A program made the translations under genes and the position numbers. From contig OX344750.2 in assembly GCA_947034885.2 (NCBI GenBank), forward strand, positions 37,620,821 to 37,684,820: a stretch of 64,000 bases of DNA. Direction: 5' to 3'. Positions 2,720 to 52,924 of the stretch are shown piece by piece; position 1 is the first letter of the stretch; every line of letters begins with the position of its first letter. Source of the DNA: Thuidium tamariscinum (taxonomy: Eukaryota; Streptophyta; Bryopsida; Hypnales; Thuidiaceae). Below the pieces are notes generated by a model. It had not been told where the DNA came from. It worked only from the letters and a program-made list of their open reading frames with translations, and made no database searches.

Positions 2720-2809
2720 CTTCTTTGTTTTCTTTGACGGCTTCCGTGCTTGGGTTTCCCCACCCGCATTGTCGCTCGAAGCTCTTCGCGACCTCAGCTT
2801 CTGCTCCAT
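2720..2809 (-). CDS. Exon 1 of gene Y-prime (basic N-terminus)
   Basis: An ATG at 2807-2809 (minus) opens a 30-codon exon, MEQKLRSRRASSD followed by NAGGETQARKPSKKTKK, ending exactly at a GT donor (2718-2719). It is strongly basic, like a nuclear localisation signal. Exon 1 of gene Y at 43615-43716 is the same kind: 34 codons, basic, phase 0, followed by an unusually long intron. The neighbouring plus-strand transposase pseudogene begins about 1.15 kb away in the opposite direction. Assignment to a Y-like gene is inferred from this parallel rather than from strong sequence identity. Confidence 0.5.
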
Positions 2810-3958
2810 TGTCAATCCCTTGGAGAATACCCAAATGCGACGCAAAATCCGATTGAGGAAGAGGCAATGCATTGACTGACTCTCTCTCGCACTATGAGTC
2901 CACCACCCCACTGGCGAGTTCTGACTTTAGGTCGCCTTCACGGTTGACTGAGGTTTCATGGGCCTAGGTTCGGCCATGGGATCCTGAGGCCTAGTCCCCG
3001 ATCGCCCAAGGTCAGGGCAGGGAGTGCGGCCCCCGGGACCACCGACTTGGGAGGAAATGATTAATTTTGAATTTTTTTTTTAAATTTCTCTTTTTGAACT
3101 TTTGATTTCATATTTGATTTTTGTGACATCACATTTTAAAAGGGATTAAAAAATTAGGGGTTGATCACGGCCCAGACTACGAGCATTTTGTATCGACTGC
3201 ATACTTGGTAGGGCCGAGCGAGTGGGGAACCTACCCGGGTCTTTCTACATGGAATGGGTTATTAATTGTTTTAAATAATGGGATCAGGTTTAAATTAAGT
3301 CTCGGTATTACTTTTGACTTTCTTGAATAGGGGCCAAGCAACGATTATGTTCATGCTGGCTCCTCATTTGTAAAGTTATTCCCATATACTATTTCATGGC
3401 TGTGCATTATTCATTTGTTTTTTCTTTTGGATATTGGGGGACCATGCTGGGATGAAATTAGGTCTGACGTGCTTACGGGGATGATCCAGTTTTGATTTTG
3501 TTATGTCCGCTTTCTTTGGAAGGTAATGATTAGTAATATCTTGATTTAATTCTTTTGTTAGATCTGCACATCGAATGTTCCAGATGCCCAGATGGTACTT
3601 ATTCAGAATCTCTGGCGGCTTTTTGTATCTTCATTAGTGTTGATGACAGACTCTCATAAATGGATATTGTCCTTTGCCTTCTTGGTGGCGGCAGCCTATT
3701 TGATTATAACCCTCGTTTTAAGCTTGGTTGGTCTAAAACATTCAAAATGTTCGAATTGTCTGTTCCTAGCAGGCTAGTCGTTTTATGGATTCTTTTCGTT
3801 TGTGAAAGTGCTTTCTCTTTGTTTTCTCTTGACGTGTTATAGTTGTCAGTTCACGCACTTTACTTCAGAGGTTTTAGATTGAATTTTGACTTGTTTGAGT
3901 ATCGATTGGATTGGATTGGACGGTCATTTACTTGGTGTCGACCGCCGTAGATTATGTC
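2810..3958. other. Divergent intergenic region of the first module
   Basis: About 1.15 kb between the diverging starts of Y-prime and X-prime. It contains homopolymer-rich stretches (3065-3130) and no convincing coding sequence. The span should hold promoters for both genes and perhaps 5-prime untranslated exons, but I see no specific promoter motif that I would defend. Confidence 0.4.
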
Positions 3959-6900
3959 ATGGACAACTTCTCCAATATGGTAGTCGTGAGGCCGGCAGAT
4001 GATGGCGTACCGGTGTATTTCCCACTCGGGGAAGATGGTTTAGCTTTTGTGTCCGCAACTAGACTAGGTCTGAGGTTCAAATTTAGACCGGACTCAATTC
4101 ATATGGATGAGGAGTTTGTGGCTGAAGACTCTGGTGTTCTTACTCATAGCGTGGGCCACCTTCCGTCGTCCTCAGGGGAGAATATTTGTTGGCACTTGAA
4201 ACCGGGTAGGTATAGAGCTTATGGCGTTAAAGATTCTTTGGAGTGCGGGTCCAAAAATGCTTCCTCTTTGAATAGGTCTTCCTCCTCCTCCTTCCAAACA
4301 CCTCCCTTGCTGCGCCCGAAGCAAGAACCGGGGTCCATTGAACTCAATCTCTTGAGCTCCGATTCGGAAGGCCAGTCACCTACCCTTCCATCTACGGTAC
4401 CATTCCCTGCTTCCGTGTCTACCCTTCCAACTGATCAAGGTTTGCCAACATTGGTGTTGGGAGATTCCCTCCAAAGGATTGGGTACGCTGCATCTGTGAT
4501 CGATAACTTGAGAGGATTGAGTTTCTTGAAAGGCTGTAGAAACGTACTATCTAGAATTGATTATAATGTAATCGTGATTCGTAGGCTCCCCGTTTTGCCG
4601 TCCAATTTCAATGGTGATGTTATTTTTGAGTTGCCTTCTGTGGAGAGCTTGGATGGTTCATCCCAATTGAAGCAAATGTATGGAATGGATAGGCGGCATG
4701 ACGGACACGTGTGGACTAAAGCTGCTACAACGAATATTGTGAACCGCATGGGCTTGCTGTTTCGAACATCAGTCTGCGTTGGTCATCTTCGTTGCACAAA
4801 CAGTAGCTGCGAATTCCTTGGCCGTGTTCACCGACTGCAAAGCGTGAATGAGATGGAATGGGAAGGCGTGTCACCTTCTCCTCTTGCAGTTGGGGAAAAA
4901 CATCCACTAGGGTCGACACTTCTCTGCAAGGTCTGCAAGGAGCCTCCTAGTTGTATTGCGCGCTGCAATGTTCGAGTGTATTACGTCTTTGGTGGAGATA
5001 AGATGTCCCGAGCGTTTGTTCATCTTGGAAAGCACGAACACCTAGTGAAGGATGGTGAACTGTGCGACATGCAAGAGAAATCTCGATCGCTAATTTCGGA
5101 GCAACTGGAGCGAACCCCCTCTGCCACGAATTCGTCTATTGTTTTGGAGGCTACAAAGAATCTACTCGGCGGCCTGATCCTATAGGCGGAAGGCGAACAG
5201 GCAAAGACGCTCGAGTTCGATGAACTTGTTCCCGTACTAGATAAGTGCAAGTATTTGAGCTCTCCAAGTATCCGAAATGAGGTAGCATCATTCAAGTATC
5301 TGAGGAGATTTGGAGTCATCGATAGCATAACAAAGTTAAGAGGCGCTAGCACTTGGGCATTCGTTTAGGAGAGCAAGTTTCCCGGTCAAGGAACTGATGT
5401 GGACAAGGTTTTTGTGTTCAAGATGTCTGAGTTAGGTCCGGGTAGTGGGGTGGACTTGGTGAAGCGTATGCAATTAGGCAATGACCTCGAAGATGCGTGG
5501 ATCATGTTCGACCATGTGAAACGTGTTGTAGGCTGGACCACCATGGCTTGCCATGTCTATGACTCGGCCTATTGCCGTGTAATGACCGTTGCGTGCTGTG
5601 ACATGCAATCAGAAGACTGTGCGGCTCAAGTTTTATTTTGGAGAAATTTAAATTCTGTTCTTCACAGGAACGGTGTTCATGATCCGTAGTTCAAGGGCTT
5701 CATGGCGGACAGTGCTCAAGCGAATTGGAATGTAGTTAGAATCGTCTATGGATCAGGAGAGAGCTCGGAACCAATGAAAGACAGGGAGCGGACTTGTCTC
5801 TTCCACTGGACTCAGTCCATGGAGAAGCATACGAAAGCCAACATTCGTGGCGACCTACAAGATCAACACCGAATATTATGCAAACAATATAAGAGTGCCA
5901 CTTCTCCTGAGGAGTCTAAAACCCGATATCTTGCCATCAAAGCATGGTGGCTATCATCAAGAGCCACGTCAGAACCTGGACTACGCCGGCTAGAGTTGTG
6001 GCTGGCTTTCTGGCATTTCCGCTACAAACAATGGGGTGGATATGAACAATTGGTATGTTATCGTTTCCTTTCCCTCCTTATCGCAATTTGTCATTTGAGA
6101 CATTTCTGTAATCTTCCACTTCGCTTACCAGGAAGTGAATTTTTATTTCTTCGGATTTGAGAAACGTTGTACATACCTTTTACCCTAATTGCACTCTCTC
6201 GGGACCGAGAGACCCCTCCTAGGGGAGAGGGCTTGCAAACAATCGCACTCTGTGCTACCGGTTGACGCATTGAAATTTGTTTTTGAAATGCAATTCCTTG
6301 TAGTCCACTAGCGAGCCCTTCCCGCATTTGCGCCTACCTAGGATGGGTTCTACTTAGAAGTCAACTGACCCTATGCTTTGGAAGGCTACTGCCAAAACTC
6401 ATTGACATGCTTCTACACCACTTTGACGGATTCTTTATTCGGTGTCTTAGTGTGTTCTTGGACATTGCAGGATCTATCTTTGAACGAGCGGGCAAAAATG
6501 CCTTCCTGCAACTTAGCCGAGACTGTACACAATAAATGGCTACAACAATCTGGAAATAGAGGTAGGAATCTGTATGTTGCTACGGTGGACGACTTTGTTA
6601 GAGCTTTTGTTCAAATGGTAAGATATTACCAATACCTCAAGGGGAACCAAGGCGGAACGGGACCGGGGAAAGAAGAGTTGTTGCTTAGAGCTGCACAGCG
6701 ATCAACGGAGCGAATTGGGAATCCAAAACCGCTAACTGAAGCCATTGCCAACATTTCAGATGTAGAAGAATTCATCAATCAAGAGCCCCATCTTGAAGGT
6801 GAAGAGGTCTTTGGATCGCAAAAAAGAAAAGCTGACATGGCTCTAGGCTGCGAACACGATTCACATAGACCTGACAAGGTGAACTTCTCACATCCGCGTA

Positions 6901-7930
6901 TTCAAACTAGATCTAGGAGAGCCAATTCCACTGTGCACTCTCTGAATCCAATTTTAGAGGGTGTGCCGCTCACAATACAGGACGAAGATGAAGACTGTAC
7001 GGAAACCGAAGTCGATTTGGGAGCAAGGACTACCGCTGGTCCGAGTCATGTGTCCGGAATTCAGGAGACTGCTTATGATGAGTCAAAATGGCACATAATT
7101 CGTTTACCAAAAACATCAGCAAAAGCATGCTTTGCCCTCCAGGCTATTACAAAGAAGAAATGTATTGCTCAGATAATTCAAAATAATGTCGCCACTGCAG
7201 CTCCAACATACACAGGTATGATGGTGAATTACAGGAAGAATACTAGTGATAGAATGCAGTTCTTTTCTGCAATGACGACATTGAGCGATGTGTAAAGGGG
7301 ACGCGAAGGAAATGGGTTTCGATCCCAACAGCAATTCCTGATGTTTGGCTCGTCAAAATGGGAACAAAGCTTTCGTTGTCTGAGATTTTAGACCTTGAGA
7401 ACACGGGTTTTCAACTTCCACAGCGTCAACTCATTTCACCACGGCGATTGTTTGGTGGAACAACGAGTGCAGAATTGTTGGGGGTGTATCCTATTCCTTC
7501 TTCAGCAGATGAACATCCAAATGCTCGTGCTGGGAAGGTAGTGCGTCAAAACCCAAAATCTCCTACAGTTAAGCACCAAAACAATTGTGCTTCTGCTTTG
7601 ACAATGGTTGCGCGAATTGATAAAGTGACAATGGTTCCTCATCCAAGATTTGGGTGTATAGTTTCAGTGGCATCTGGTACGGAGCCAAAGGTTGAAAAGT
7701 ACTTGATGACGATTTCGTCATTTCCGGACTGCACTTGTCCAAATTTCAAGGAAATGAATCTTAGGTGCTTGGGTAAACGTGGAACATGGGCGAATTGTAA
7801 GCACTTGTATTTCATTTTTACTGTTATTTGCAACCTACAGCCTACAACAGATCTCTTCATGCATTGTGCCACTCTAAGCTTCAACGAAGTGAAGCAAATA
7901 CTCTTGAGTGGCATACTCAATTATTTGTGA
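3959..7930 (+). pseudogene. X-prime: decayed MULE-type transposase, two exons
   Basis: Exon 1 runs 3959-6052 (donor ttg|gtatgt) and exon 2 6471-7930 (acceptor ttgcag). The product parallels gene X at 38261-42102: an N-terminal region ending CWHLKPGRYRAYG, a WRKY-GCM1-like zinc finger (DGHVWTKAATTN then CVGHLRCTNSSC), the DDE-type core (IMFDHVKR, FKGFMADSAQANW, ERTCLFHW) and a C-terminal SWIM finger (CTC..., CKH). Three in-frame TAG codons (5183-5185, 5366-5368, 5687-5689) and a frameshift near 7265 show it is no longer a single open gene. It differs from gene X at many positions throughout, so the two are separate families, not a recent duplicate. DNA transposition is inferred from the fold; no terminal repeats were found for this copy. 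Confidence 0.8.
6195..6212. promoter_or_regulatory. GG-NN-CC centred palindrome in the X-prime intron
   Basis: TCTCTCGGGACCGAGAGA has perfect 8-bp arms around a 2-nt centre. It and the following GACCCCT...AGGGGAGAGG resemble the palindrome-bearing part of the ~240-bp satellite at 505-2530 (CTCTCGGTGCCGAGA then GACCCCTGAGGGAGAGG). So the same motif family occurs in introns of both genes of this module. A protein-binding role is inference. Confidence 0.5.
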
Positions 7931-25795: not shown

Positions 25796-26221
25796 TTTTT
25801 GTCCAAGAATATTGGAAATTGGGTAAGATAAAGGATTTCGAAGTTTATTTTTAGAGTAGGAAATCCAAAACTGACCAAAAACAAAAAATCCACATAACTT
25901 TTGACTCATTCATCAAAATGGAATGATTCAAAACTTCACGCGTATACAAAATTCTAGAAAATCAATTTGTGGAATTCTTGTTTATGAAAAAAGTGATTTT
26001 CTCTGATTTGCATGAAATGCCCAGTTATGAAAAAAAATAACATATTAGGCTATAACTTTTGACTTGTATTTTCAAATGTCATGAAAATTTGTTGCATATG
26101 AAAGATTTTTCTTGCCCCCACATTCTATTCAAATTTCAGCCTCAGATCTAAAAATCCCCGCTCGTAGGTACCTGCCCAAAATTTCTATACATCCCAAAAA
26201 AACAGTGCAGTCTTTTAAGGG
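25260..26221. mobile_element. TTAA-flanked (piggyBac-like) element, 962 bp
   Basis: Left end TTAA-CCCTTAAAGGACCGTC, right end GCAGTCTTTTAAGGG-TTAA. Inverted termini CCCTTAAARGA lie inside TTAA target copies. No transposase. Its left half is part of the palindrome arm; its right half lies in the spacer. Confidence 0.6.
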
Positions 26222-28261: not shown

Positions 28262-29677
28262 TTAAAGCTTTAAATATGACTTCTAGGAACCCAATGTTGA
28301 GTTTGGACTTGTGGAATCCAATGTTGAGTTTGGACTTGAAATCTGAGCGGTCTTCGGCGGAGGTTAGTCGGTCGGCAGGGCGGACGCCTTTGTCGGACGC
28401 CCACTTGGTCGTTAGGGCGGACAGGCAGGGCCAAAGGGCGGACGCTGGGCGGTCGGAAGGGCGGACGGCGAAGTCAGTAGGGCGGACGGCGAAGTCGACA
28501 GGGCAGACGTTGGGTGGTGGCAAGGCGGACGAGGACATCGGAAGGGCGGATGCATAGCGGGGCTGTCGAACGCCAAGTCCGGCCGACGACTTCCGAGGCG
28601 GACGGGCCTATTGTCGGACGACCCGAGGCGGACGCCAGAGGTCCGACAATTGAACATATCTCCTAAATTCCTATCCTTCTCAATTGCAATTTTTCTTGAA
28701 AATCCCCAAATACTTCCAATGCATCCTAATGAAGCATATTGACATTTGAAGTTGGACAAGTAACCTCCAATTTTATTTCTTTTTGGGTTGTAAGTCAAAA
28801 CCATCAAAAAATTGTACAAAATTCTAAAAGTGTCCTTTGCTTTTGAAAATTTGCAAGTAGGTGTCCTACATCATGCCAAGCATGTATAAAAGAATTTAGA
28901 AAATTTTATTTGCCCATGCAAAAGTTGTGGCAAACATACTAAATTGTGACTAATGTGACTAATGCCCCAAAGAGCATTAGTCACATTAGTCACAATTGAA
29001 CATATCTCCCAAATTCCTAGCCTTTTCTTTTTCAATTTTTTTTGAAAATCTCCAAATACTTCTAATGCATCCTAATGAAGCATATTGACATTCGAAGTTG
29101 GATAAGTGACTTCCAATTTTATTTCTTTTTGGGTTGTAAGTCAAAACCATCAAAAAATTGCACAGAATTCTAAAAGTGTCCTTTACTTTTGAAAATTTGC
29201 AAGTAGGAGTCCCTCATCATGCCAAGCATGTATAAAAAATTTAGAAAGTTTTAGTTGCCCATGCAAAAGTTGTGGCTAATATAGTAAATTGTGACTAATG
29301 TGACTAATGCCCCAAAAGAGCATTAGTCACATTAGTCACAATTGAGCATATCTCCCAAATTCCTATCCTTCTCAATTTCAATTTTTTTGGAAAATCCCCA
29401 AATACTTCCAATGCATCCTAATGAAGCATATTGACGTTCGAAGTTGGACAAGTGACCTCCAATTTTATTTCTTTTTGGGTTGTAAGTCAAAACCATCAAA
29501 AAATTGCACAGAATTGTAAAAGTGTCCTTTACTTTTGAAAATTTGCAAGTAGGAGTCCCTCATCATGCCAAGCATGTATAAAAAAATTTAGAAAGTTTTA
29601 GTTGCCCATACAAAAGTTGTGACTAATATAGTAAATTGTGACTACTGTGACTAATGTTTCAAAGGGCATTAGTCACA
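27726..29677 (-). repeat. Right arm of the inverted repeat
   Basis: Reverse complement of 23842-25795, separated from it by about 1.93 kb of unique spacer. The near-identity of the inner part means a recent event, gene conversion, or an assembly duplication. Confidence 0.9.
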
Positions 29678-35750: not shown

Positions 35751-36304
35751 TTGGATGTCCAAAGGGTGGAGTAGTTTGGAGGCTTTCACGGCATTCCATT
35801 TGCACAATGAATATTGTAAAAGAAGTCAAATAGTGAATGGAATAATATCTTGAATAGTAAAGCAATATACACTACAATGGGAAAAAGCACTAAAACATCA
35901 AAACCATAATGGATAGGAAGCTAGTTTGAAAAAAGATCTTAATATATGGTAATTGGTGGCACTAATGTTAGCATAGTTTGTTGACAATTACTTAAATTTT
36001 TATGTGTATAAAACCCATAGAATTAGTGAAAATATACCTTTAAGAATCTATAGAAATGGGCTATATTATATCTCTCAAATCATGAACACATATTGTAATT
36101 GTGTGATGTGGAAATGCATACATTCTATATCCATTGTTAACAATCATTGAATGTAACAATTCATACTACAAAGCCCTTTGTGCACATAGATCTCAATTGA
36201 AGATCACAAAAAGAAGTTTACAGTAAAATTTTACAATTTACCACATGCCTATCAACAATTCTAGTATAATATGTCCTAGGAATAGACCTTTCACTCCAAA
36301 CCAA
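35751..36304. other. No supported gene
   Basis: AT-rich sequence between the TNP2 5-prime end and the repeat at 36305. No terminus of the large CACTA element could be fixed here; TTTTTTGTAGTAG at 36530 is a weak candidate. Confidence 0.4.
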
Positions 36305-36510
36305 CGACGCTAGCAGGCGAGCCTATGAGCGTGAGCCTGTGAGCTTGGAGCGTGGAAGCTGTGAGCTTGGAGCTTGGAACCAAAAAATTCCCATTTTTTT
36401 GCCAAATTTTTTGGTTTTTGTTAAAAAAATTCAAAACTTTGATTATTTTTTGGTATTTATGGTAAATTTTGGACCTATGACCGTGTATCCTATGACCGTG
36501 GATTAGTAAA
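36305..36510 (+). repeat. Terminal-like repeat, GCTAGCAGGCGAGCC family (left copy)
   Basis: GCTAGCAGGCGAGCCTATGA and the following GCGTGAGCCTGTGAGC, then a CCTATGACCGTG doublet at 36472-36504. The same order is found inverted at 52040-52151. The two copies therefore flank the X-Y gene pair as inverted repeats about 15.8 kb apart. Confidence 0.6.
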
Positions 36511-38260: not shown

Positions 38261-41200
38261 TTACTCTGATATTGTGATGATACCAGCTTGAACAAGAAGA
38301 ACCTTCAACTCATTGAAGCTGAAACTAGGAGCATGGATGAAGAAGTCTTTTTGATGATCCATTTTGCAAAAGTACCTGAACAAGTAGTATAAGTGCTTGC
38401 AATTCACATACTGTGCACGCCCTCCAATTGCAGAGACAGCCATGTTCACAAAGTCAAAACAAGTGCAAGCAGGAAAGATACCGAGAGTAATCTTGTAGAC
38501 TTTGGTTCTGTGCTCCGGGCCAGTCTCCAAAGAAACTATTGCTCCTAATCCTGGCAAAGGAAGCAAAGTGACGTTGAGAATTTGTCCTTTGATATTCCTT
38601 GCGCTCTCCCATTTATTGCGATGCTCAATTGTTGGGGCATTTGTACTTCGTCGAATAGTCTTGTTGTTTCTCACCGTAGAAAATACATCTGGATTTGAAG
38701 GTGGCCTTTCATCATAATGAATACTCTCAAATACCCTGGACATTTGAAAAAGACGCCGAGGAGACAATGAAGGTTGATCTTGTAAACGAAAGCCTGCATC
38801 TTGTAGAGACAATGTCTCTTCTCTACTAAGATTCGTGCCTGCCAGTATAGGCCATATATCTAGCACATCAGGCCAATCAATCACCCATTTACGCTTTGTA
38901 CCTTTCACACACCGCTCAATATCATCTGAACAAAACCAGAAGTCTACTACTACCTCACGATGGCTCCCATACTCTTCCTTTCTTCCACGGTAGGTGGCGG
39001 CTGGAGTTCCCTTTTGTCCCCTAGAAATTTTTGCTGTACACTTGATATGTGAACCCTTTTGTTGAGCATGACACTTTGCACTTGATTTATGGCTAATTCT
39101 TGCAATGTGCCACTTGCTTGTATCACAGTCACTTTCAAAAGCACAACTCACGTGAATAGCATCATTTGATGGTGCAAGTGCTTGCATAATAGGGGAAGGT
39201 CCCGAGCCAACACTTGTTGACCTCGTACGCACGCGGGGCTGTGAAAAGTTTACCTTATCTAGGCGATGTGAATCCCCTTCATTGCCAATAGGAATGTCAA
39301 GCTTTCTTTTTGTGCTCCCAAATACTTCTTCTCCCTCCAAATGAGGTATGCGGGTCCCTATGTCTTCAGTTCCAGGTAATGTATTAAGAGCCTCTGCAAT
39401 CTTCTTAGGATCTCTACTTCGTCTAGCAGCTCGCAATGTCAATTCTCCCTTCGACGGTCCAGAGCCAGAAGTATGTCCATTCAAAAATGCTCTGTAATTT
39501 TTCATCTGCATCCATGCACGGATACTATCGTCGCAAGTGGCATCAAATAAATTGTTGCCACGATTGCCAGACATTTGAAGCCATTTGTTGTGCACAGTCT
39601 CAGATAAATTGCATGAAGGCATCTCAGCTAGCTCTTCTAAAGATAAATCCTACAAAACCACACAATCAAATTATGTGAAATTTTCTTAAAACAAAGTCAG
39701 ACTACTTCATTGCATTGAAATTTAAAATTTGCTTTTAATCTAAATTTATAGTGCCAAAATTGTATGATGAAAGGAATCAAAGGATATACAAACCTTACAA
39801 AATTTGAGTGAATTTATGTTCTTTCAAAAGACTACTATTCCTTATTTAAATATGGATTTCACTAATAAGAAGTGTTGTACTATAATAGTGTAGTAATATT
39901 TTGAATTTCATAAGGACTCTCAAAGAAATCAAATCAACTTACCAATTGCATAAAGCCTCCCCATTGTCTATAGCGGAAGTGCCAAAATGCCAACCAATGC
40001 TCCAAGTGATGAACTGCATCCAAAGTTGCAACTCTGGATGACAACCACCATGACCGAATGGCAAGGAAACGTGTCTCTACCTCCTCCATAGTTTTCGAAT
40101 CTTTGTACTGCTTGCACAAAAGAGTGTGTTGATGTTGTAGGTCTTCTTTAATGTATTTTTGGGTGTGCTTTTGCAGAGACGCGCTCCAATGCAACAAGCA
40201 AGTTCTTTCTCGATTCTCCATTTGCTCTTCAGGTGACCCACTTCCATAAACAATTTGGACTGCCCTCCAATTGGCCATGGCACTATCCGCCATAAAACCT
40301 TTAAAATTAGGGTGATGTACTCCATAGTGATCCATGACTGCATTTAAAGATCGCCAAAATTGTACCTGAATCTCAGTGTCTTCCGATTGCATATCGCATG
40401 TTGCAATCGTCATAACTTTTTTATAATTTGCGTCGTAGACATGGCATGCCATGGTCGTCCAATCCTTTACGCGCTTCACGTGATCAAACATCATCCATGC
40501 ATTTGCCAAATCTCCTCCGGATTGCATGCGTCTGACTAGATCTACGCCACTACCCGGTCCCTCAGTCAACATCTTAAACAAATAAACCTTCTCCTTTCCT
40601 TGTCCGGGAAACACACTGTCATGTATATATTCAAACCTGGAGTTCTTCTTCATTGTCATAATGTGATCCAGGACCCCTCCACGATTATTTGTGCGAAAAG
40701 ATGAAATCACATTCCTTATACTTGGGCTGCTTAAATATTGAAACCTGTCCATTACCTCCTGCAATTCTTCACCTTCAAGCATTTTCTTTGTACCCTCTCC
40801 ATGATGAAAAAGATAGTGTGATAGGAACTCCTTGCTAGCTGAAAGCGCTATGGCAGAGTTCGTGGCTGATGGCGTCTTGGCAACCTCTTCAGCAATAAGG
40901 GCAGAAATCTCGGTAGCAGAGTCTCTATACAAACCCTTTGCAACTGGATGTGCATGAACTCCAAAATGAATAGCAGCCCTAGTCATCTCAGGATTTTCAC
41001 CATAACAATAGTATATTCGAGCAGAGCAATGGTTTAGGCAGATTGGGGGATTCTTGCATACTTTGCAGACAAGAGTAGAATCTTTAGGCGGCTTCTCTCC
41101 AGTAGTAAACGGAAAGGTTGTACATCCACTCCACTCTGTTTCATTCTGACTCCCAGTTCTCCTCAGGAAATCACAAGAAGGATTTACACAAGCAAGATGA

Positions 41201-42102
41201 CCGGCGCAGTATGACTTACGAAATTTCAAGTGGTCGGAGTTGTGAATATTTGTTGTAACTAGCTTGCACCACGGATGACCGTCATAACGCTTGTCCATGC
41301 CTTCCAAATTGCGAGCAGCTGATGAAGCATTTGAGCGACGAGGAGGCAATTCAAATACAATATCACCATCAAAAGTCGTCGGCAGGTAGTTCACTTGTTG
41401 TACTGTAGCAGAATCCATATCCAAAGTAGACAACTCATTCCGAGAACGGTGCACGTTGGCAAGTCTTCTCAAGCAAGTAAGTATACTGACACTATCAATT
41501 ACTCCCAACTGAACTTGAGGGTGGACAGCCTTTGATTTTCCTAACCTTTCAAACGAACAAGGCTCTATAGGAGTGTCTAATGACTTGACATCTTCAGAAA
41601 AGAGCTGTGTTGGTAACGACTGTGAATGAGGTGATAATCCAGAAGGGCCCTTGCTTGAATCACTGGACAACTCTACAATAGGATCTAACATTTCTATTTT
41701 CACTGGATGCATCGGGGACTTTATTTTCAGTGTAGTGAATCCCTCTCTAACCAAACTAGGTGAACTAATTTGAGCAAGAAAAGGCTTATCCACTGTGGAA
41801 GCTTCGGAGTGACGACTGGGTATCTCTGCAGATCTAGTAAACAAAGACAAAGGAAGACCATAGGCTCTATAGTTTCCGATTGGAAGATACCAGCAACCAC
41901 CATCATCCTCAATTGACCTCTCAATTGGCACTAGTTGCAACAACGAACCACTTTCAGAATTCATTTCCTTTTCAAGGTAGATAGAAAACTCTACAAACTT
42001 GAAACGTACATGAAGAAGATGACTGCTGACTCTTGCAACTGTACCATCTTGAATCGGAAAATGGACAGGAAATTCATGTCCATCTCCATGTATGCATGCC
42101 AT
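38261..42102 (-). CDS. Gene X: intact MULE-type transposase (WRKY-GCM1 finger, DDE core, SWIM finger)
   Basis: Two exons, 42102-39943 and 39649-38261, join in phase (FMQL|DLSLEELAEMPSC) with GT-AG borders to give 1182 codons and a TAA stop. From the ATG at 42102 the order is: N-terminal region with LPIGNYRAYG (~70-80); serine-rich linker; zinc region YDGHPWCK...SYCAGHLACVNPSC (~273-310) and LVCKVCKNPP...IHFGVHAH (~345-385), WRKY-GCM1-like; DDE core with MMFDHVKR (Asp ~540), FMADSAMANW (Asp ~606) and RTCLLHW (~635), acidic candidate in LEHWLAFWHFR (~701); C-terminal SWIM finger CTC...CKH (~1115-1139). These domains are typical of Mutator-like transposases. No stop or frameshift was seen, so it may be functional. 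It lies head-to-head with gene Y (starts 1.5 kb apart). An acceptor at 42142 suggests a further 5-prime exon. Confidence 0.82.
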
Positions 42103-43614
42103 GGCCGGAACAATAGTGGCACAAGCAAAGATAGTTTGATTTCTGAAACACAAAACAAACACTTAGGTAAAACATTCAAAAGATCAGAACCAAAAGCTAA
42201 CGCATATGCATACTACCTAGAATACCGTTGTCAATTTATTTAACCAGACATTTAAGATGAAGTTGTCTTTAGAATGGAATAGAAGCGGTTACATGTACTA
42301 TATACAATTATGGGCAGCCAAACTACGATAACAATTAAATCTACGTATATAGAAATTCCTAGGATTTTGAAGGACGACAAATTAATAAATATCCAAGTGT
42401 TGTACTTCCTGGCCTAATAAATAACTTTAATACAACTGTAGACTTGTACTAGCCAAATGTAACTCTCTGACACTGGGATCACCAATTTCAAAAGCTTAGC
42501 TGTCATTTCATGTAGAATGGCAAGAAAGAGCTTCCCTAGACAGGAGTATGAAAGAGCAAAAGCTTCTTAGTTCTATCTCACATATATAGTTGCAACTTGG
42601 AGGGAGAATGTATTATTTTTGAATTCCTATTTTATGTACACTAGGGCGAGTGCACTTGTGGTAGAGACTAGGAAGCGTAGAAGGAAGCATAGGCTACTAT
42701 TCTTTTCATCTCGAAAAGCACTAAGAAGAGCCAAAATGAGAGGGAAAAAATTAGTTTCAAAAAGTAGCCAAGCTTCACTGTTGGGAATTCGCCCACTTCG
42801 TTATGAAGAAGGCATCATGGAGGTGACTGAGGTGACAAGGAGCATGGAGCCAATACCGGAAGCAACGGAAGCAATGAGTGGAGTCCTAGAGCCCTCGGAA
42901 GAAGACATGCAAGAGGTAAGGTCTGAAGCAATCTAATTTAATGTATTTTATTAGTAGTGATCATGTTAGAAGTTGCATCATGGATATAAGTGGAATTAAG
43001 GACTCTCATTGCTTATAGATAAAAACAGGTGTGAATGTCATTTACATTTGCTACAACTTTTAGAATAGTGGAAACTTAAATAGGGTTAGCATAAGTGCAA
43101 TACTCTACAATAAAATACAAATAGATATTGAAATAGTAATATTAACACTAATTATAGAGCTCAATTCCTAAAACCTAACATCATTTACAAATAAAGAAAC
43201 CTAAAAACTCTAGAACCTCACGTAAATCCATTTCATGAAGACAATTGCTTCCCTTTCCTTTAATTTGTAACCTTTGAAACTTGCAAGAATCGAATCGATT
43301 TTTACTTCCAATTTACGCAATCACCTTGTGAACATATAATTCTGACATTTTGCAAAGTAGAGGATTAACTTTCAACAAAGCGGGAAGAAGAAGTAACCTA
43401 GCCTGCTTTTTGAATTACTTGCTTGGCGGCTTGGCTCCCGAACTTGCCGCGTCCTACAAACGTGGCTGGCCATCCGTGCCGCTGCTGCGCCCTGTGCCGC
43501 CCCCCGCTTGCCCTCGTTTTGGCCCGCAAGCTTGCTGTTCCGCTTTGCTTTGTCTCAATCCACCTTCGCCAGGCCTCAGATTTACAGAAAATTTTCTGCT
43601 TTGTTCAGCGCGCG
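42103..43614. promoter_or_regulatory. Divergent intergenic region between genes X and Y
   Basis: About 1.5 kb holding the 5-prime ends of both genes and a candidate extra exon (42619-42915). Coordinated expression from a shared divergent promoter is possible; no specific core motif is claimed. Confidence 0.4.
42619..42915 (+). CDS. Candidate upstream or alternative first exon of gene Y
   Basis: An ATG frame of 99 codons, basic first (RKRRRKHRLLFF, RRAKMRGKK), acidic later (EAMSGVLEPSEEDMQE), ends exactly at GAG|GTAAGG. Its phase 0 is compatible with splicing to gene Y exon 2 (46593), which would give a second N-terminus. There is no homology support. It may equally be an unrelated short frame. 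Confidence 0.25.
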
Positions 43615-46600
43615 ATGGATTCACGTCGTGCAACTCGAAGCGCTAGCAAACGGAAACTTGCAAAAGTGGGAGAATCGAGCACCAGACGAAAGAGAAACAC
43701 GAGTCCAGATGAGCAGGTGAGTCTTCAGATTCAAGATCATGGCTTTCTCTTGACCACGAGGATCAAACTTGCTTCTCTTTTCGCACAACAGCAACTTCTA
43801 CTGGAGGTGTCGTTGGCTGGATGTTCTTGTGCATTTTTTAGTTTTGACAAGCCTCCTTACTAGTAAGGAGGTTCACCACTAAATCTCTCGCTCTGGGTAC
43901 CGCAAGCGGGGATCAAGTTTGTTCCTTTTTTTCGTTTCAATGGTGGCCCAGCCTGCTCTTGCATTGATTCTGAATCTTCCTTGCGCTCCTGATTTCTCGG
44001 CCTCAGTTCGTCCCTTCAAAGGAACTCGCTTCCGCTGTCAGAGAGCCGCTGCACTTCTCGCAGTTTTCTTTCAAACACGAGACTCAAAGCAGACGCTCAC
44101 TGGATCTCTCCCAAAGCAGGCAGGGTTTAGATTGGTGTATTCAAAAGTTGAGTAGCATTTTTTTCAGATTGTAAAAGAATGCCAGTAGTTTAGTTGCTCG
44201 ATTTTTGAACGATTTCATAGTAGCTTACTCTGGTTGCTAATGAACCTCGCTGCTGCGTTGCAAAGTTCAGCAGGAGAGCGTGTGGAATATTCTCTCCCAA
44301 ATCTTACGTTTCAGCAGGGAGACAGTACAATTTTGTGTTGTTCGGAGGCTTGATAACGCTAATCATTATCTGAGTCCGAGAAATTGACGGCTCTGATTCC
44401 ATATTCGGCACGATGTGTGTTGCTATTAATCCTTGGCGCCTACTACATTCGAGGTTACAGAACCTCGCTCATCTACCATGTCCGAATTCGGGATTTGCGG
44501 AGGAGATTTTCAAAAATAGATTCATCCAGCGGACCTCTTGCGGTACCGCAAGAAGCTTGAAGTTGAGTCTGAAACCGTAGGTGTTTGGGGTTCATGGGTT
44601 CCATAATCTCCGATTGCTTGCCTTATTCGCAGTCACTTCGAGCTTTCGCAGTGAAGCAGATTTTTGCCACAGGAGCGCTGCAAGGACCATCTCGACCTAG
44701 TTAGACACTTCTCTGGCTATTGGGCTGAAGTTTAGTTTTCTGTTCGAGTGTGCAAGAATGCTAGTAGTCCGTGAAATCGGTTTTGTAATTTTCAGAAAAT
44801 TAGCTTCAAATTCTTGAGTGAAGCATGCCTAACCTTTGCCTGCAGGTTTGTGTTTTATTCTCCTTTAGGGCATGTATCGCACTTGCAGGATGTGCTTGCA
44901 GGTGAGAATCGAATGTCCTTGTGTTCCAATTCTCAATTGTTTCAAAAGATTTTTTTTTTAAAAACACTGCGGACCTCTTGCGGTACCGCAAGCAGTTTGC
45001 CCAGCTAGTACGCCGCAGGTACGGGATGCAGTGTCGACCTTGTTAAGCCGCAGTTTTGAGAAGCTTGGGGAGGGCAGCGACTGCTCGCTCCCGATCACTT
45101 GCCTTCGTGCTCCCGAGCAAACCTGTCCGCTCGCTCTCAGTCAACGTGGACTCGTGGAGCGAGGGTTTGAATTGAGAAGGTTCTGCAAAATGAAACCCCC
45201 CTCAGAACCCATTGTGGTACCGCAAGGGGGGATTCAAAGCTCAGTCGATGCGGTTACTTCCCGAGGTTGCACCATTTTGGGATTTTTTTATCTCGACCCC
45301 TTTATCAAAGCCTTCAGTAGTTTAAGTTCGGTCTAACCAACTGTGACCGCGAGAAGATACTTTGTTGTTGCTGTATTGTCCAATTGGTGCAGGTTCTGTT
45401 GCGATCGAGAATCAGAACTTGAAAAAGGAAATTCCCACCGCCCTCTTGCGGTACCGCAAGAGAGGTTACAAAATGGAAAAGCAAGTTGATTTCTCAAAAA
45501 TGGCGTCCAAGTTCTTCTTTTGATCGGCAGAGTTTCTTGGCGATGGCTTTCATTGCAGACTAGCGTCGGAATAAATGTCCCTCCCTGATACGGTTGCGGT
45601 ACCGCAAGAGGTTCCTTTATCAAACAATTTGTTCAAGTTAAAATCGGGCAAGGGTCCGAAGGCAAATTTATGTTGTAAGGATCAAGGGTTCTACTTTGCA
45701 GTGTAGGGATCGGAGCATCTTTTCCAACGCTGGTTGAATTGCTCATATTGGAGGTTCAAATTCCTTTAAGAATTCTCTGTTGGGGGTTTCAAAGTTCAGA
45801 AAGTGGCAAGAGGATCCTCTCACTTGAGAACAAGCTTTTGGGATGATTAGGCATTTGTTTTCAATTTCTGGTGGATGTTCAAATTACTCATATTGGAATT
45901 AGGAGTTTAAATCACATGCCTAAAGCACCGTTCAAATTTTCTGAAGATGATCTTGCTTATATTTGAAGAGAATACTGAACTTGTTTTTCCTCTTGCGGTA
46001 CCGCAAGAGGGGGAATGGGTATTGGATCTTTTGAAACTGAAGACTTCCATTTGTTTTTATGAGGGTAGAAGTGATTTAAAGTCCAATGGATGTTTCATTC
46101 ATAATTTCTTTCAATCAGTTTAGTGGAATCACAATAGCTTTTTCATCAAGTACACATATCATTCAATGGCATTTTACATGAGGAGGCCACTATGGAGTTC
46201 AGTTTCTATCAATGCTAATCTCCTTGCAGTACCGCAAGGGTGTCAATAGGATAATGATTTTGGCTCTTGAGATTTTATTTTGTTATCCTGAATTGTCCAA
46301 ACTTGCTTTCCATCTTGTGAACTTGAGATTCAAAAATGGTTATTTCACTTCCTTACTGAACTATAGATATAAACTGTATTGTGACTAACTGCCCCAATTC
46401 ACATAACTAAGTTTTCCTTTAATTCTTTGGTAGTCTTAAAGACATTTTTCATTGTCAACAAGTCATAATTCTAAATTAGTTTTGTCATTTGGATTTCTTT
46501 TTATTCTAAGGGTAATTGATTTTTTCTTTGGATATAGAATTCCTAGTATCATTTGAAATTTTTTCAAGCAATAAGCCCATTATCTTTTGCAGATTGAGCA

Positions 46601-49600
46601 GCAGACTTCTATGGATTCTGGGGGTCAAAACATTGAAGACAATGTCCCGGTAAGAAACTCTTATAACATTCTATTTTTTTTATCTACATAAATTGATCTC
46701 AGGTGCCTACAATCATGATTTCAAATCTCAATCTATTGCTCAATAGAAAGTACAAAATGATGGCTTCATTATGAGCAATAAACGGTCTAGCCTTTTAATG
46801 ATTGCAATTTGCTGATTACCTCTTGATATTCATAGATCACCAGATTTAATGAGTATGTAAGTCCATCTAGACAAATTGAATTTTACTTTGATTGTTTGTT
46901 TTAGGCTCAAGCTCAATTCAGTGCAATGTGATTCAGGAACCAATTACACCTGCTTTTGTACAAGAAACCTTGTCAAAAGATACCACACCTCAGTCCGAAC
47001 AAGAAACCCAACCAGAGATTGGTGATACAAATAGTGAGGAGGATCAAGGGGTGGTTGGGGATAGACAAGTGATTGGTGATGAACAAATGGTTGTGGAATA
47101 TGTCGATGAAGATGATCTTCGCCGAAAGCACAAGGTCGATTCGAATACTATCATAAACAGCATGCGGTTTAGGCCTATCGCCCTTTCCCGAATGACCATT
47201 CCACTATGTCTCCTTTTCCCGATGCCAATCGTGAGGCCTACTTTGACATGCAATCTAAGAAAATTGGACCAAGAATATGTTCACAACTATCGTGAAGGGT
47301 CTCTTGTTTTTTACATATCTACTACAAATGCAGAGGGACAAACAAAATTTCTATCACCAGATGAGCGTGCAAGCTTTAGTCCTCTTTGGAAGGAAGAGGT
47401 CCTAAAGTTTGAAGAAAAGCTTGACCGTACACCCGAACTCCATTGCCTCAAAAACCTGAAGTTTTTTATTTGTGATGGTAACCACCGTCAAATTGCGTGG
47501 ATGTCCCACATTGATATAAAACACCCCAACGATCCAGATTGGCATGTTCAAGTGGACTGTATTTTGTTGGAGACAAAAGGACGGAATGGGGCTCTTATGC
47601 AAGCAATGCATGATATAAACAAGTAAGGACATCCTTTGAATTTTTTGATGTATTTTATGTGATTTTAGCGAATTGGAATGACATTCTTTTTGCAGGCATA
47701 CGGAAGGGTCACATGTCAAGACGAAGTTGATCCACACCTTATATCAAGTGAGAAGGTATGGTGAGATGCCTCTCAAAGAGTTCAAGGAATTGCTCACAGA
47801 GTCTGATTTTGGGAAGTGCCAACAGAATATTAAGAAAACATGGTATACCATGACTTTAGAGGTTTTTACCTCATTCATTTTTCAGGTAATTTTTTTTTGC
47901 CATTGTTTGACTATGACCATTTATTTTGCTTTTTATTTCATTATGTTGACTTTGTCCTTTGATTTTGCCTTCTTTCGATGTCTTCAACCTTTGATTTTGA
48001 TCCTTGTTTTTGGCTGTACATTAGACCTTTTCTAATGATGTTTTGGGCTCAATAATTTCTTAGTACGAGATTGCAGAGGCAGCTGATATAGCTGCAAGGG
48101 TATACAATGAATGCACCCCTGAGGGGGAGGCTACTGAAAGTGGACTAGTAGCTGCAATGATGAAAGGGGCAACAGACAGAAAGTCACATCTATATTTCAA
48201 GATGGCAAAGATGGTCACCGTAGCTAATCCAGCCCTTGGTTCTGAGTGGTTTGAAGAGGTAATAGTTTGGATGTTTTTAATCTTCTTTACATTTCATGCA
48301 TCTTTATTATTTTGCAAATGTTGATTGACCTTTTTTCTCATGACTAGATTGAAAGGCATTGGAGTTTGAATGCTGAGCCCGAGATGACTCTTGATAAGCT
48401 CCAACTTATAGCAACTTCAAGTGCAGATGCTGTCTACAAAGTGAAATGGTTAAAATGGTGGAATCTTTCCAAACATTCAAGGGAGGCAAGAAAGTTTCCA
48501 GCCAAGCCAATGAATGATGACAAATTCACGGCTTTTCTTCACAAGGCAGTGTGGTGGGCAGGGGTGAGTTGTTTGGTTAATGTTGTTCTTTAATTTTTAA
48601 CAAGTGGTTGCATAAATGAAGTACTAAATTTCCTCTTGATTTTGTGCAGATTGAAGCCGCTGTGGTTTCAGAGGTAGACCTAATATCTACTCGGGACAAT
48701 CTAACAATTGACATGACAAGCCCTTTGGAGCCTTTGACTGTGCAAGACTACATTGAAGAATGGCGCATGCGGATTTGGGACCAAGGCTTTGGAGATGAGC
48801 TTGGTGGGAAGAAACCTTTCAAAAAAGGGGACTCTTTTTCGAAGTTTCTTGAAGCCGACAACATAATTAAACGTGTTGTTTTCAGGTATGAAATCATTGA
48901 ATGATTTATCACTTATCATTTTACATTCCTCCAATTATTTGTGCCTATAATTATCTTTGCATTGGATTCAGGTACTTCAAATTGGAGTTGTACAACAAAA
49001 AAGCCATCTCCAAGCATGATTTGCCCCCTTTTATGAACAATTGGATAGATCTTTGGTCTCCTGAGTATATGTTTTCTCCATATCAAATCAAGACCTACAC
49101 CTTTGTACACCTTCAAGGCTATGGATGGTATTTAGAATGCGATCCTTCATTTACACCTCCATCTGAGGTTGCATACCGGCAAAGTCTTCAGTCCCTTGCA
49201 CCTTCAGAGGTCTTCACGGATGAATATGCTGGTTTGGAGGATAGTGCCAAGGAAGAAGCAATCAGCAAGCGGCTTGAAGAGGACCAGAAGAAAATGGAGA
49301 AACAAGCCAAAGACGCGGAGAAGGCAGTTGCACGAGAAGAAGAAAGGAAGAAGAAAGCTGCTGCAAAGGCTGCAGCAAAAGACACTCAGAAGAAGGGCAA
49401 GCAGAAGAAGTCAACTCCTAATGCAGATGCCCCAGCCTCATCGGTGGACAACACATCGGTTTTAGAGGTGCAACCTTCGACTGGTGTAGTTGTGGCATCG
49501 CATTATGCTCAACTTTCCGAAGTGCAAACTCGTGCACCTATGCAAAGATCGGTGGATTCGAATGTTGTAGATGTGGCTGAACTCATTTTGAATACAAATG

Positions 49601-51215
49601 TGGATTTGGTTCTTGGTGACATGACTAGTGACCCTCCAACAGACTACAGCCGGATTTTGACATTCTGTGAAAAGGTATAGCCAGTTGTATTAGTTATTTT
49701 ATTCCTTTGTTGTGTGTATGCCTCTCTTTGATTATCACTAATCAATTTTTGTGTTTTTTTCCACAGAATGCATCAAAAAAGAAAAGGTCCTATCGTGGGC
49801 AGGTGGATAAACACCCCGGCTTTGACCTTATCTTGGTAGATATGCCAGAGGGTCTTCCAGTTATTGGAGTAAGTGACCCAGATTCTAGTATTCCTTCCTG
49901 GAATGCCTTACCAGACTCTTGATTACAGCCTATATTCGACTTTGCAGATATGCATCTTCATGACGACGACGCTCTCATTGTCATTCACCCTCAGAGCTTA
50001 CAAGCTAAGAAGACATTGTTACAGCATACGAAAGCATATTCCTTTGAAAAGAAGCTCGATTGGTGGGGGGTGAATCAGTTATATTTAACAAATCCTGCCA
50101 ACTTGAGAGGAACGGTGAGAATTGAACTGTTGAATGCCTTTTTTCATTCTAGAGGCAAAAATAAGAAGTGATTGAGTTATAGTTTAATTGATTGAATCAT
50201 AGTTTGATTGAACTGATTGAATTATACTCTTATTGAATTGGTGAATTGCAGTTTCATTGAATGATTTAATTATTATTTCTAATAATTTTTGTGATGCAGA
50301 CTAAACGATTTGGGATTACTTTATTGGTGAGGAAGATTCCTTCTCTTCCAAACTCCAAGTTTGCATTCCAGCCTATTCCCGACCTAGTATCACGTGGGGT
50401 TGATGTGGAGAGAGATGATGTTCTTTACAACTATGTTTATGAGAATGATTTGATTATGAATGGTGACCGCCCTTGGCGTGGAGCTCGATAGAAAAGCTCG
50501 TTGCTTTTGAATATGTTGATAGAATCTTGCACGCTACCTGGTGACATTGTTTTGGATGCCACAGCAAGTACAGGTGATTTCTTGGAACCCTTTTATTTCA
50601 ATTTGTTTTTTTAATATTTCAATCTTTCTTTAAGTTACATTTTTGAGGCTACTATATAACAATTTCTGTTTTTTCAGGTGCCTCTATCCATGCTTGTCAA
50701 ACTTCTGGTCGCCATATTGTTGCTATTGAAGAGGACAAGGCATTATTTGAAAATGTCCTTAAGCCTCTTATTCGTGCGCCAGTATCACTTGCAGCTCCTG
50801 CAATATCAGTAGCAGAAGAGATTGTTGACCTCGATGATGACGTTGGCATTGTGGAACCAATCCAAAAAAAATCCAGATTCAGTACGTAAGTCAACCTTGC
50901 ACTTCTCAATTTTTTTGGTTAATAATGCCTATTTATATTAGACTAAATTCTATTGTTTGTTTCAGATTTGTGAGCGGTGAAGTTGAATCCAGTGTTCCTT
51001 TCTCCCAAAGACCTGACTTTTTCCCGAGTCCTGAGAAGTCTTTTCACTTGCCTATTTATACTAAAATGATGGCTACAGCATTTGAAGTTCATGGCGGTAC
51101 TAGTACTTCTTCTCATTATGGACAAGTGCACCCTCGTGCCTTGGATTTCTTGGATGTTGAGGCCCCTTCTTCAAGTGGACAGTCTGCCTCAGATTCTTCT
51201 TATACTGAAGAATGA
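43615..51215 (+). CDS. Gene Y: ParB-like plus DNA-methyltransferase-like protein, 13 exons
   Basis: Exons: 43615-43716, 46593-46649, 46922-47622 (start could be 46937), 47696-47885, 48064-48258, 48348-48563, 48650-48885, 48972-49674, 49767-49868, 49929-50114, 50300-50573, 50678-50885, 50966-51215. All borders are GT-AG and all phases fit, giving about 1139 codons. Order: basic N-terminus (MDSRRATRSASKRKL...); acidic linker; ParB-like domain ending FFICDGNHRQIAWMSHI (GNHR ~239-242) and MHDINKHTEGSHVKTKLIHT; helical region; charged coiled coil (~657-713); FDLILVDMPEGLPVIG (~820-833), in the place of the DPPY motif; PGDIVLDATASTG (~976-988), in the place of SAM motif I; acidic Ser-rich tail. This is the beta order (IV before I) of N6/N4 methyltransferases, known fused to ParB domains in bacteria and phages. 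One in-frame TAG (50489-50491) lies where the family often has Gln (QKP), so full-length product is uncertain. Confidence 0.65.
43891..46238. promoter_or_regulatory. Array of eight GGTACC-centred palindromes in gene Y intron 1
   Basis: The core CTTGCGGTACCGCAAG, a perfect 16-bp palindrome, occurs exactly at 44537-44552, 44977-44992, 45445-45460 and 45992-46007. Variants are at 45593-45608 (GTTG start), 46223-46238 (one change), 45211-45226 (left half altered) and 43892-43907 (left half weak). The copy at 45443-45462 extends to CTCTTGCGGTACCGCAAGAG. Spacings are about 633, 440, 233, 238, 148, 398 and 232 bp; several are near 235. I saw no copy elsewhere in the window. Clustering of a 16-bp palindrome in the large first intron of a gene encoding a ParB-like protein resembles a parS-type site cluster in form, but binding is inference. 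Confidence 0.75.
45989..46010. promoter_or_regulatory. Best palindrome site (22 bp, perfect)
   Basis: The core CTTGCGGTACCGCAAG is extended by CCT on the left and AGG on the right to a perfect 22-bp palindrome, the longest of the eight sites. Confidence 0.8.
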
Positions 51216-52039: not shown

Positions 52040-52151
52040 TCCAACCACGGTTATAGGTACATCCACGGTCATAGAACCTTCATCATTTTTTCTTAACAAA
52101 AAATTCAGGCTCATAGGCTCACGCTCATAGGCTCGCCTGCTAGCAACCCTG
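52040..52151 (-). repeat. Terminal-like repeat, GCTAGCAGGCGAGCC family (right copy, inverted)
   Basis: Reverse complement reads CAGGGTTGCTAGCAGGCGAG, then CCTATGAGCGTGAGCC, then CTATGACCGTGGATG. It matches 36305-36510 in order but in opposite orientation, and lies 0.8 kb past the gene Y stop. Confidence 0.6.
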
Positions 52152-52924
52152 GTATTTAGCCATATGTTTGTAGGCTAGTAGGGTGAACATATAACCCTTG
52201 CAATATGGTGAGGTTCATGCAATATATTATGTATTGTTTTTTTATTAAGCCTATTTATTTTTGGTAGCACACAAATATAAATGGATGTGACTATTTTTGA
52301 GCTAAATTGTTTTTTTATTTTTTCAGTTGTTGGAGTGCATAAATTTTTATTAATATTTTTCTATATTTTGTAATTGGTTGTAGTTTTCATTGATTTATGA
52401 ACCTTATTAATGTTAATGAAATTACTATATTAACCCAATCGGCAATCTAATCCTATAATTCAACATATAACAACCCCTTCTATTCCATTCAATTGGAGCC
52501 CTAAATTCCAAATTTAGCAAATTTGATTCATTTTGACCAAACACTGTCCAGTCATGATGTGACACATGAAAAAATCAAAAGAATTTCATTGCTTAAGCTC
52601 CTTGTACAGTTGGACCTTTAGTAAGATGTAAGCCAATTAAAAATCATACTAGAATTACTCAGGTAGAAATCCACTTACTATGAATAATCAACTGGAGTGA
52701 AAATAAACTGGGATATTAAATACAACCCCCCAAAAAAGTGTCCGCAGTAAGTGGAAAAAGCTGTGGACCCACTGCTTTAACTTCAAAATACTAAAGGCAG
52801 ATTCTATTGTTGGAAGTTGACGAGACAACAAACTAAAGGCCCCACTAACTAAACTTATACACTGGGGTCCATCAACTCAACTAGGGAACGAGATTGTAGA
52901 AGTTCCCTCAAATCGTAAACAATG

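Follow-up and report, generated by a model that had tools for sequence, protein, structure and literature searches.

Introduction

To our knowledge, VANC is the only plant transposon protein known to find its own family through clustered intronic motifs and to undo silencing. The VANC anti-silencing proteins are encoded by VANDAL transposons, a group of Mutator-like elements (MULEs) of Arabidopsis, and are paired with motif arrays (Hosaka 2017, PMC5735166; Sasaki 2023, PMC10398659). In the former account, short motifs cluster in noncoding DNA, including an intron of the protein's own gene; the arrays often lie in tandem repeats, and related families carry different motifs (PMC5735166). Here we describe a similar layout in a 64,000-nucleotide stretch of the Thuidium tamariscinum genome (assembly GCA_947034885.2, contig OX344750.2, positions 37,620,821 to 37,684,820, forward strand; hereafter the window). 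An element in this window, here termed X-Y, carries a putative transposase gene (X) and a second gene (Y) whose first intron holds eight 16-bp palindromes. Reading from sequence, we favor, at a probability of about 0.5, the interpretation that these palindromes are cis-acting targets of a transposon-encoded, family-specific DNA-binding system, with Y as the likely binder and anti-silencing as the likely function. The Y motifs differ from those of VANC in mostly sharing a CGGNNCCG core, and the pieces of Y that were scanned lack VANC domains; anti-silencing by Y would be by analogy.

Bacterial ParB binds parS, which consists of clusters of 16-bp palindromes, and the X-Y locus resembles that arrangement in that its 16-bp palindromes are clustered within or next to the gene that encodes the presumed binder. 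It differs in that Y has no match to ParB_N and reads GNHR in place of the canonical GERR box, and in that X-Y is a eukaryotic transposon. VirB, a ParB-type protein whose site-specific loading counters H-NS silencing of bacterial promoters (PMC10770331, PMC10653881), is a precedent by analogy: it is bacterial and acts against H-NS.

A third comparison is offered by the ParB-methyltransferase accessory proteins of algal transposons, such as Sola1-1_Ec32 of Ectocarpus, which are proposed to bind the transposon that encodes them (PMC12477816). As described in the passage on these proteins, they share with Y a length of about 1,100 aa, a position on the strand opposite to the transposase, and ParB-like and N4/N6 methyltransferase-like parts. 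The algal elements differ in transposase type, the host of X-Y is a land plant, the methyltransferase motif of Y is altered, and that passage mentions no cognate site array (PMC12477816).

Eight palindromes cluster in the first intron of Y

A search of the window with CTTGCGGTACCGCAAG, allowing up to three mismatches, returned eight sites: four exact, two with one mismatch, one with two and one with three. Shuffled sequence gave a mean of 0.05 sites and at most one, with none of 100 shuffles reaching eight. All eight sites lie in the 2.88-kb intron 1 of Y, and the rest of the 64-kb window holds no further site at the same threshold.

43615..51215, plus strand: Y gene, 13 predicted exons, 3405 nt coding (exon model with GT-AG introns)
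43717..46592, plus strand: Y intron 1, holding all eight sites (exon model)
43852..43871, no strand assigned: unrelated 20-bp perfect palindrome CCTCCTTACTAGTAAGGAGG in Y intron 1
43891..43906, plus strand: palindrome site 1, 3 mismatches
44537..44552, plus strand: palindrome site 2, exact
44977..44992, plus strand: palindrome site 3, exact
45211..45226, plus strand: palindrome site 4, 2 mismatches
45445..45460, plus strand: palindrome site 5, exact
45593..45608, plus strand: palindrome site 6, 1 mismatch
45992..46007, plus strand: palindrome site 7, exact; core of a 22-bp perfect palindrome at 45989-46010
46223..46238, plus strand: palindrome site 8, 1 mismatch

The original prediction, made from the letters of the window alone, of eight 16-bp palindromes confined to one intron of about 2.9 kb is borne out by these counts, as is its remark that the other introns of the gene are short (60-287 bp in the exon model). 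Several sites extend beyond 16 bp as palindromes, reaching 22 bp at 45989-46010. A window search for perfect palindromes of at least 14 bp located six, of 14-22 bp, in Y intron 1; five are the motif and one is CCTCCTTACTAGTAAGGAGG, the inner 18 bp of which (up to four mismatches) recur in one of 14 other regions of the same Y subfamily (family I, defined below), with a single change (L038). The window copy of Y carries an in-frame TAG at 50489.

Exact copies of the palindrome are confined to one Y subfamily

The whole genome (363.2 Mb in 19 contigs) was scanned with CTTGCGGTACCGCAAG, using the reversed pattern as control. At up to two mismatches, 124 places were found against 37 for the control. 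All 39 exact copies, a number taken as complete because the matches listed run on from exact to one-mismatch ones, lie at 15 Y copies of one subfamily, here called family I; 31 are bracketed within Y intron 1, and eight lie beside Y exons found on one side only. The count of the 16-mer relative to Y genes had been set beforehand as a check on their association, and the association stands.

The 14 clusters holding exact places outside the window were fetched (L-numbered loci), and all 14 were found at Y copies of this subfamily. In the window and in ten fetched loci the bracket is complete, with exon 1 on one side of the sites and exon 2 or 3 on the other. The remaining four comprise L026, where exons 5-13 but not exons 1-4 were found, L029 and L037, each with exons 2 and 3 but no exon 1 found, and L030, where exon 1 was located but no later exon. 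Together, the 15 family-I copies hold 101 sites at up to three mismatches, 79 bracketed and 22 in these four loci. At up to two mismatches the figures are 74 and 22, which accounts for 96 of the 124 genomic places; the other 28, counted without being located, do not exceed the control of 37. Each copy carries 3-9 sites with a median spacing of 228 bp, and the fetched family-I stretches hold no further sites outside the clusters.

A search with Y exon 3, in which the best 150 of 602 candidates were scored, delimits the same subfamily. Among the matches listed, 15 have at least 72% identity to Y exon 3 and all others 51% or less. The window copy and fetched motif loci account for thirteen of these 15, the match at C3:26675747 lying just outside its stretch, while the motif loci L026 and L030 are without exon 3 among the matches listed.

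Contig C11 (17.5 Mb, 4.8% of the genome) accounts for 31 of the 150 Y matches listed, by contig labels typed by hand; it is perhaps a sex or repeat-rich chromosome.

The same 16-mer also appears in viral contigs, with 15 stretches in six IMG/VR contigs overall and 7 and 8 exact copies in IMGVR_UViG_3300009702_000035 and IMGVR_UViG_3300009702_000021, respectively (fetched as stretches L001-L007, L010-L012 and L015). Two sub-threshold ParB_N matches (E 4e-7 and 5.5e-5) were found in the former contig, and a search of viral contigs returned no relatives of Y. This occurrence is probably a coincidence.

Related Y families carry different palindromes around a common core

To place family I among its relatives, we sampled 12 Y copies with 44-50% exon 3 identity, in 3.7-4.0 kb around and upstream of exon 3, together with Y', a diverged Y copy at the left of the window.

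2720..2809, minus strand: Y' exon 1; a matching exon is found in L046 and L047
401..2719, minus strand: Y' intron 1; tandem array at 510-2526 with units of 232-247 bp

A 30-locus matrix was built at up to two mismatches from the 15 family-I regions, the 12 fetched loci, Y' and two motif-less loci. Motif I occurs in 15/15 family-I regions and 0/15 of the others. Those others carry a type II palindrome (CTCTCGGCGCCGAGAG-like) in six cases, a type III palindrome (CCGTCGGATCCGACGG-like) in seven and none in two; no locus among the 30 carries two motif types. Arrangement also varies. Ten dispersed copies of CTCGGCGCCGAG (up to two mismatches) are present in L049, and GTCTCGGCACCGAGAG recurs in tandem units of about 245 bp in L046, L047 and Y', whose intron 1 is mostly tandem array with seven sites of GTCTCGGCACCGAGAG type (up to two mismatches). 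In L050 and L052, CTCTCGCCACCGAGAG recurs in 127-128-bp units, and palindromes around CGGATCCG are found in L044, L048, L051, L053 and L054, with weaker versions in L043 and L045. L043, L045 and L051 have a single type-III site at up to two mismatches. The arrays of L046, L047 and Y' can be assigned to intron 1 because exon 1 was found in all three; in the other ten motif loci the sites lie upstream of exon 3, exon 1 not having been located. Across families, the sites are palindromes of 14-16 bp placed mainly in Y intron 1 or just upstream of Y exon 3, in noncoding DNA.

Between families the arms and the two central bases differ, and the CGGNNCCG core is mostly common. Of the 28 motif-bearing loci, 26 contain this core, either flanked by complementary arms or in the form of listed cores; the exceptions (L050, L052) have a core that differs at one base. 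The family-I regions contain 2-8 CGGNNCCG core sites with arms, against at most 0.03 expected. The suggestion that the gene carries its own operator or loading array is therefore well supported as anatomy, because the exact copies all lie at Y copies and related Y copies carry different palindromes; the ParB label attached to that suggestion is weak, as detailed below.

Genome scans with the other two motifs at up to one mismatch gave 147 places for CTCTCGGCGCCGAGAG (control 1) and 566 for CCGTCGGATCCGACGG (control 0). In a hand comparison, ten of the 11 exact CTCTCGGCGCCGAGAG copies precede a listed Y exon 3 by 1.06-1.85 kb; the eleventh is one of five clustered sites on C3 that have no listed Y. 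For exact CCGTCGGATCCGACGG, the 50 places listed cover C1 and C2 only; 37 of them have a listed Y exon 3 no more than 10 kb away, as do 1.0% of random positions. With offsets measured from the lower coordinate of the exon and the best 150 matches as the Y reference, 22 of the 37 lie at -1.2 to -3.3 kb, ten at -7.9 to -9.1 kb and four at +2.4 to +2.9 kb; the last is at +6.0 kb of the nearest Y and, by subtraction, -8.3 kb of the next. At -7.9 to -9.1 kb the site has X sequence on both sides in L060 and L062 and on one side in L063. At +2.4 to +2.9 kb (L061, L064, L065) blast found no Y exon; in translations inspected by eye, the end of a Y-like exon 8 and an exon-9-like FIDCPENLPVPG flank the site.

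These placements bear on two other accounts. Y, or X, might bind the intron-1 sites purely to regulate its own gene, without any marking role across the genome, as the position of the sites near the Y start and the restriction of family-I sites to Y intron 1 or its immediate surroundings, with none in the window's X intron, would suggest. However, types II and III also have single sites between the X open reading frames (ORFs) and before the methyltransferase-like Y exon, a simple operator would not need 3-9 sites dispersed over kilobases, and some families have amplified their arrays in tandem; we regard such an autoregulatory operator as rather unlikely. Alternatively, the transposase X could bind the sites, for example to tether the ends or license transposition, Y being incidental. 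X and Y reside in the same elements, so that their co-occurrence fits either binder, and types II and III do have a site in an X intron. Yet the window sites are internal, the termini carry different repeats and the clusters center on Y intron 1, which makes X an unlikely binder.

Structure of the X-Y element

The element is estimated at about 15.85 kb because X and Y are flanked on either side by 48-bp inverted repeats, with CTATGACCGTGGAT-type repeats just internal to each end.

36300..36347, plus strand: left terminal inverted repeat, 48 bp, 88% complementary to the right end
36475..36503, plus strand: two subterminal CTATGACCGTGGAT repeats, left end
38261..42162, minus strand: X gene, putative transposase, two ORFs of 742 and 462 aa, head to head with Y
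52043..52074, minus strand: two subterminal CTATGACCGTGGAT repeats, right end
52106..52153, minus strand: right terminal inverted repeat, inward start CCAGGGTTGCTAGCAGG

The terminal inverted repeats (48 bp, 88%) recall Mutator-like elements, from which X-Y differs in that X lacks the MULE transposase domain; a Pfam scan of the X ORFs matched no family at all. X is accordingly a putative transposase on account of its position, its repeated occurrence and the inverted-repeat ends. A CxC...CxH arrangement, possibly a SWIM-type zinc finger, was noted by eye near the end of X. No target-site duplication of 8-11 bp was recognized by eye beside the element ends. Y lies on the strand opposite to X in the window and in 10 of the 14 fetched family-I loci, namely those in which X was found.

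The protein encoded by Y

Two regions of Y invite functional labels.

46937..47622, plus strand: Y exon 3, putative ParB-like domain with invariant CDGNHR
49767..50885, plus strand: Y exons 9-12, methyltransferase-like region with DMPEG at the motif IV position

The ParB-like label derives from the invariant CDGNHR of exon 3 and from stray weak matches: DUF1015 in Pfam (best, E 0.0045) and phrog_1033, 'ParB-like partition protein', in PHROGs (E 0.015), each in one of eight members only. Pfam, NCBIfam, PHROGs and solved structures gave nothing firm for a ParB identity, and the designation of Y as ParB-like in the original prediction is weak. CDGNHR and the fused methyltransferase-like C-terminus nonetheless fit the ParB-methyltransferase transposon proteins of algae. 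No VANC domain (DUF1985, DUF287) was matched by Pfam in Y exons 3-6, 8 and 9-12.

The methyltransferase-like label rests on PF01555 (N6/N4 methyltransferase), which scored just under its cut-off (25.7 bits against 26.7, E 1.3e-5) on the C-terminal piece of Y, its stop codon being written as residue X, and on matches to CcrM and DpnA that are weak; an exon-by-exon scan of the genome for the N6/N4 methyltransferase domain gave no match at E<=0.001. Canonical N6/N4 methyltransferases read [DNS]PP[YFW] at motif IV. At this position nine family-I copies read DMPEG (seven) or DMLEG (two), Y' reads DVPEG and three type-III copies read DCPEN; the motif I region is also unusual. The domain is probably not catalytic. 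These data weigh on a further account, in which the methyltransferase-like domain methylates the palindromes as a private self-mark of the family. The PF01555 score speaks for it, and methylation of the own element has been suggested for the algal relatives in the passage cited (PMC12477816), but the altered motif IV position makes methylation by Y less likely, and we consider this account improbable.

Conservation, substitution and folding of the sites

Conservation of the sites among element copies was compared in seven pairs. Motif columns are clearly better conserved than the rest of the intron in two, the window and L038 (0.82 vs 0.66-0.69) and L026 and L039 (0.95 vs 0.81-0.83). The family-I sites show 64 distinct substitutions across the 15 copies, 22 of them transitions at the two CpGs, which suggests that these sites are exposed to DNA methylation. 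A strand-oriented motif was considered, as the seven substitutions in the window all fall in the left half, and was rejected, since the inner halves carry 25 vs 18 over the 15 copies (p 0.36).

Palindromes in an intron could also act as stem-loops of the pre-mRNA, in splicing, small RNA formation or control of intron retention. The site at 45992-46007 gives a strong RNA fold (z -5.3), a long stem that includes G-U pairs, and the flanks of the eight window sites pair above random intron positions (p 0.02). The other seven of the eight, however, have z above -2.6 on the Y strand, no Rfam match was found, and in 36 non-redundant family-I sites tested against permuted arms flank pairing is at chance (total p 0.57) save for the first base (p 0.01), so that RNA hairpins were rejected for the window family. 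Type-III sites behave differently: they center palindromes of up to 56 bp whose outer arms vary from site to site yet remain self-complementary, with 197 pairs in 18 sites against 117 in permuted arms, a value reached in 0/5000 permutations. Examples, in Y-sense coordinates, are the following.

L053, 1020-2028: long-armed type-III sites
L060, 409-424: long-armed type-III site
L044, 1201-1216: long-armed type-III site

Taken over all families, a role as RNA stem-loops seems very unlikely. The long arms also bear on the idea that the sites are inert, that is, small foldback or palindromic repeats spreading in introns without function, since some family-III sites do resemble foldbacks of about 56 bp with site-specific arms. 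Against it, the sites of family I consist of a 16-bp core found in 36 distinguishable contexts of flanking sequence, the core is kept across families while the arms change, and tandem units mostly retain the core. We hold inert insertion to be highly improbable.

A proposed family-specific recognition system

Element-encoded, sequence-specific recognition is the simplest account of motifs that are private to a family, clustered in an intron and re-spelled around a shared core. It can be laid out in three steps of decreasing confidence. Most confidently, a factor encoded by the element would bind the sites as a dimer. Secondly, that factor would be Y, with either the ParB-like N-terminal or the methyltransferase-like C-terminal part providing DNA recognition; Y is favored because its intron 1 is where the clusters center, and because the algal passage proposes that proteins of a similar kind bind the transposon they come from (PMC12477816). 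Least confidently, Y would mark or coat copies of its own element in trans, shielding noncoding and promoter-proximal DNA from host silencing, a function favored because VANC has the same layout in the account cited (PMC5735166). The effect would more likely be exerted through occupancy than through DNA modification, as the methyltransferase-like domain is probably not catalytic, and drift of the arms and center between families would confine each Y to its own family. A narrower version, advanced only tentatively, would see in X-Y a self/non-self recognition system derived from ParB-methyltransferase transposon proteins, in which Y, as a catalytically dead methyltransferase-ParB fusion, loads onto the private palindromes of its family, possibly spreads over the element in the manner of ParB and keeps copies unsilenced, with protein and sites co-evolving as lock and key.

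Several observations weigh against recognition of the palindromes by Y, in whole or in part. As regards the protein, ParB_N (PF02195) had no match at E<=0.001 across the whole genome, with matches in 10 of 14 control genomes, hhalign profile comparison of Y with four ParB-like proteins from viral contigs was negative, and the ParB assignment remains weak. Co-occurrence, moreover, cannot separate Y from X as the binder. As regards the distribution of sites, the X intron of the window has no palindrome site, and two subfamily members, L040 and L041, lack the motif (up to four mismatches) over the 4.75 kb that precede exon 3, a stretch in which L040 also yielded neither exon 1 nor exon 2. Several type-III loci have just one or two sites. 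Among the 39 listed of the 136 one-mismatch CTCTCGGCGCCGAGAG places, 23 are isolated CTCTCGGCGCCGAGGG copies, and 13 of the 50 listed CCGTCGGATCCGACGG places are not near a listed Y, several of them with the same internal spacings. The pairwise comparisons are equivocal: in the close pairs L028/L035 and L027/L034 the motif is no better conserved than its flanks, in L028/L037, L033/L036 and L030/L037 the motif excess is modest and the alignments poor, and the columns were picked by motif match in either sequence, which may bias conservation upward. The long self-complementary arms of type-III sites are not needed for plain dimer binding. Finally, the Y motifs are palindromic and without net orientation bias (25 vs 18, p 0.36), whereas VANC motifs, where described, share the same orientation.

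An apparently unrelated type of protein, in a large and diverse clan, here has a VANC-like layout. The X-Y clan comprises at least 150 scored Y copies, of about 600 candidates, in one genome, where protein and motif families are paired. Such paired families form a natural panel for the evolution of DNA specificity, predict that each Y would bind the palindrome of its own family but none of the other types, and bear on whether sequence-specific self-recognition is general for large plant DNA transposons. Cognate palindrome arrays were not described in the titles and abstract openings found; the literature yielded the VANC papers and the algal ParB-methyltransferase passage.

Additional repeats and neighboring features

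Four of the isolated CTCTCGGCGCCGAGGG copies (L056-L059; on C1, C1, C2 and C3) were fetched and belong to one separate repeat, 88-92% identical over 1.1 kb. It has an X-Y-like end (CAGGGTTGCTA...GAGCCTGTGAGC) with one CTCTCGGCGCCGAGGG about 0.5 kb from that end, and is possibly a non-autonomous relative of the X-Y element, or coding.

At the left of the window, Y' forms with X' a second, diverged pair in the same head-to-head layout as X-Y.

3899..7930, plus strand: X' gene ORFs, aligning with X in four blocks at 65-77% nucleotide identity
6196..6211, no strand assigned: CTCTCGGGACCGAGAG between two X' ORFs (probable X' intron)

About 1.1 kb past the last X' ORF, a match to ARC6 (plastid division), which marks the window as plant DNA, lies at 9053-9478 on the minus strand. 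Further into the window, 23927-25800 and 27721-29594 form a 1,874-bp inverted repeat that is 100% complementary, with its arms 1.92 kb apart and tandem 346-bp units inside; it is either a very recent foldback or an assembly artefact.

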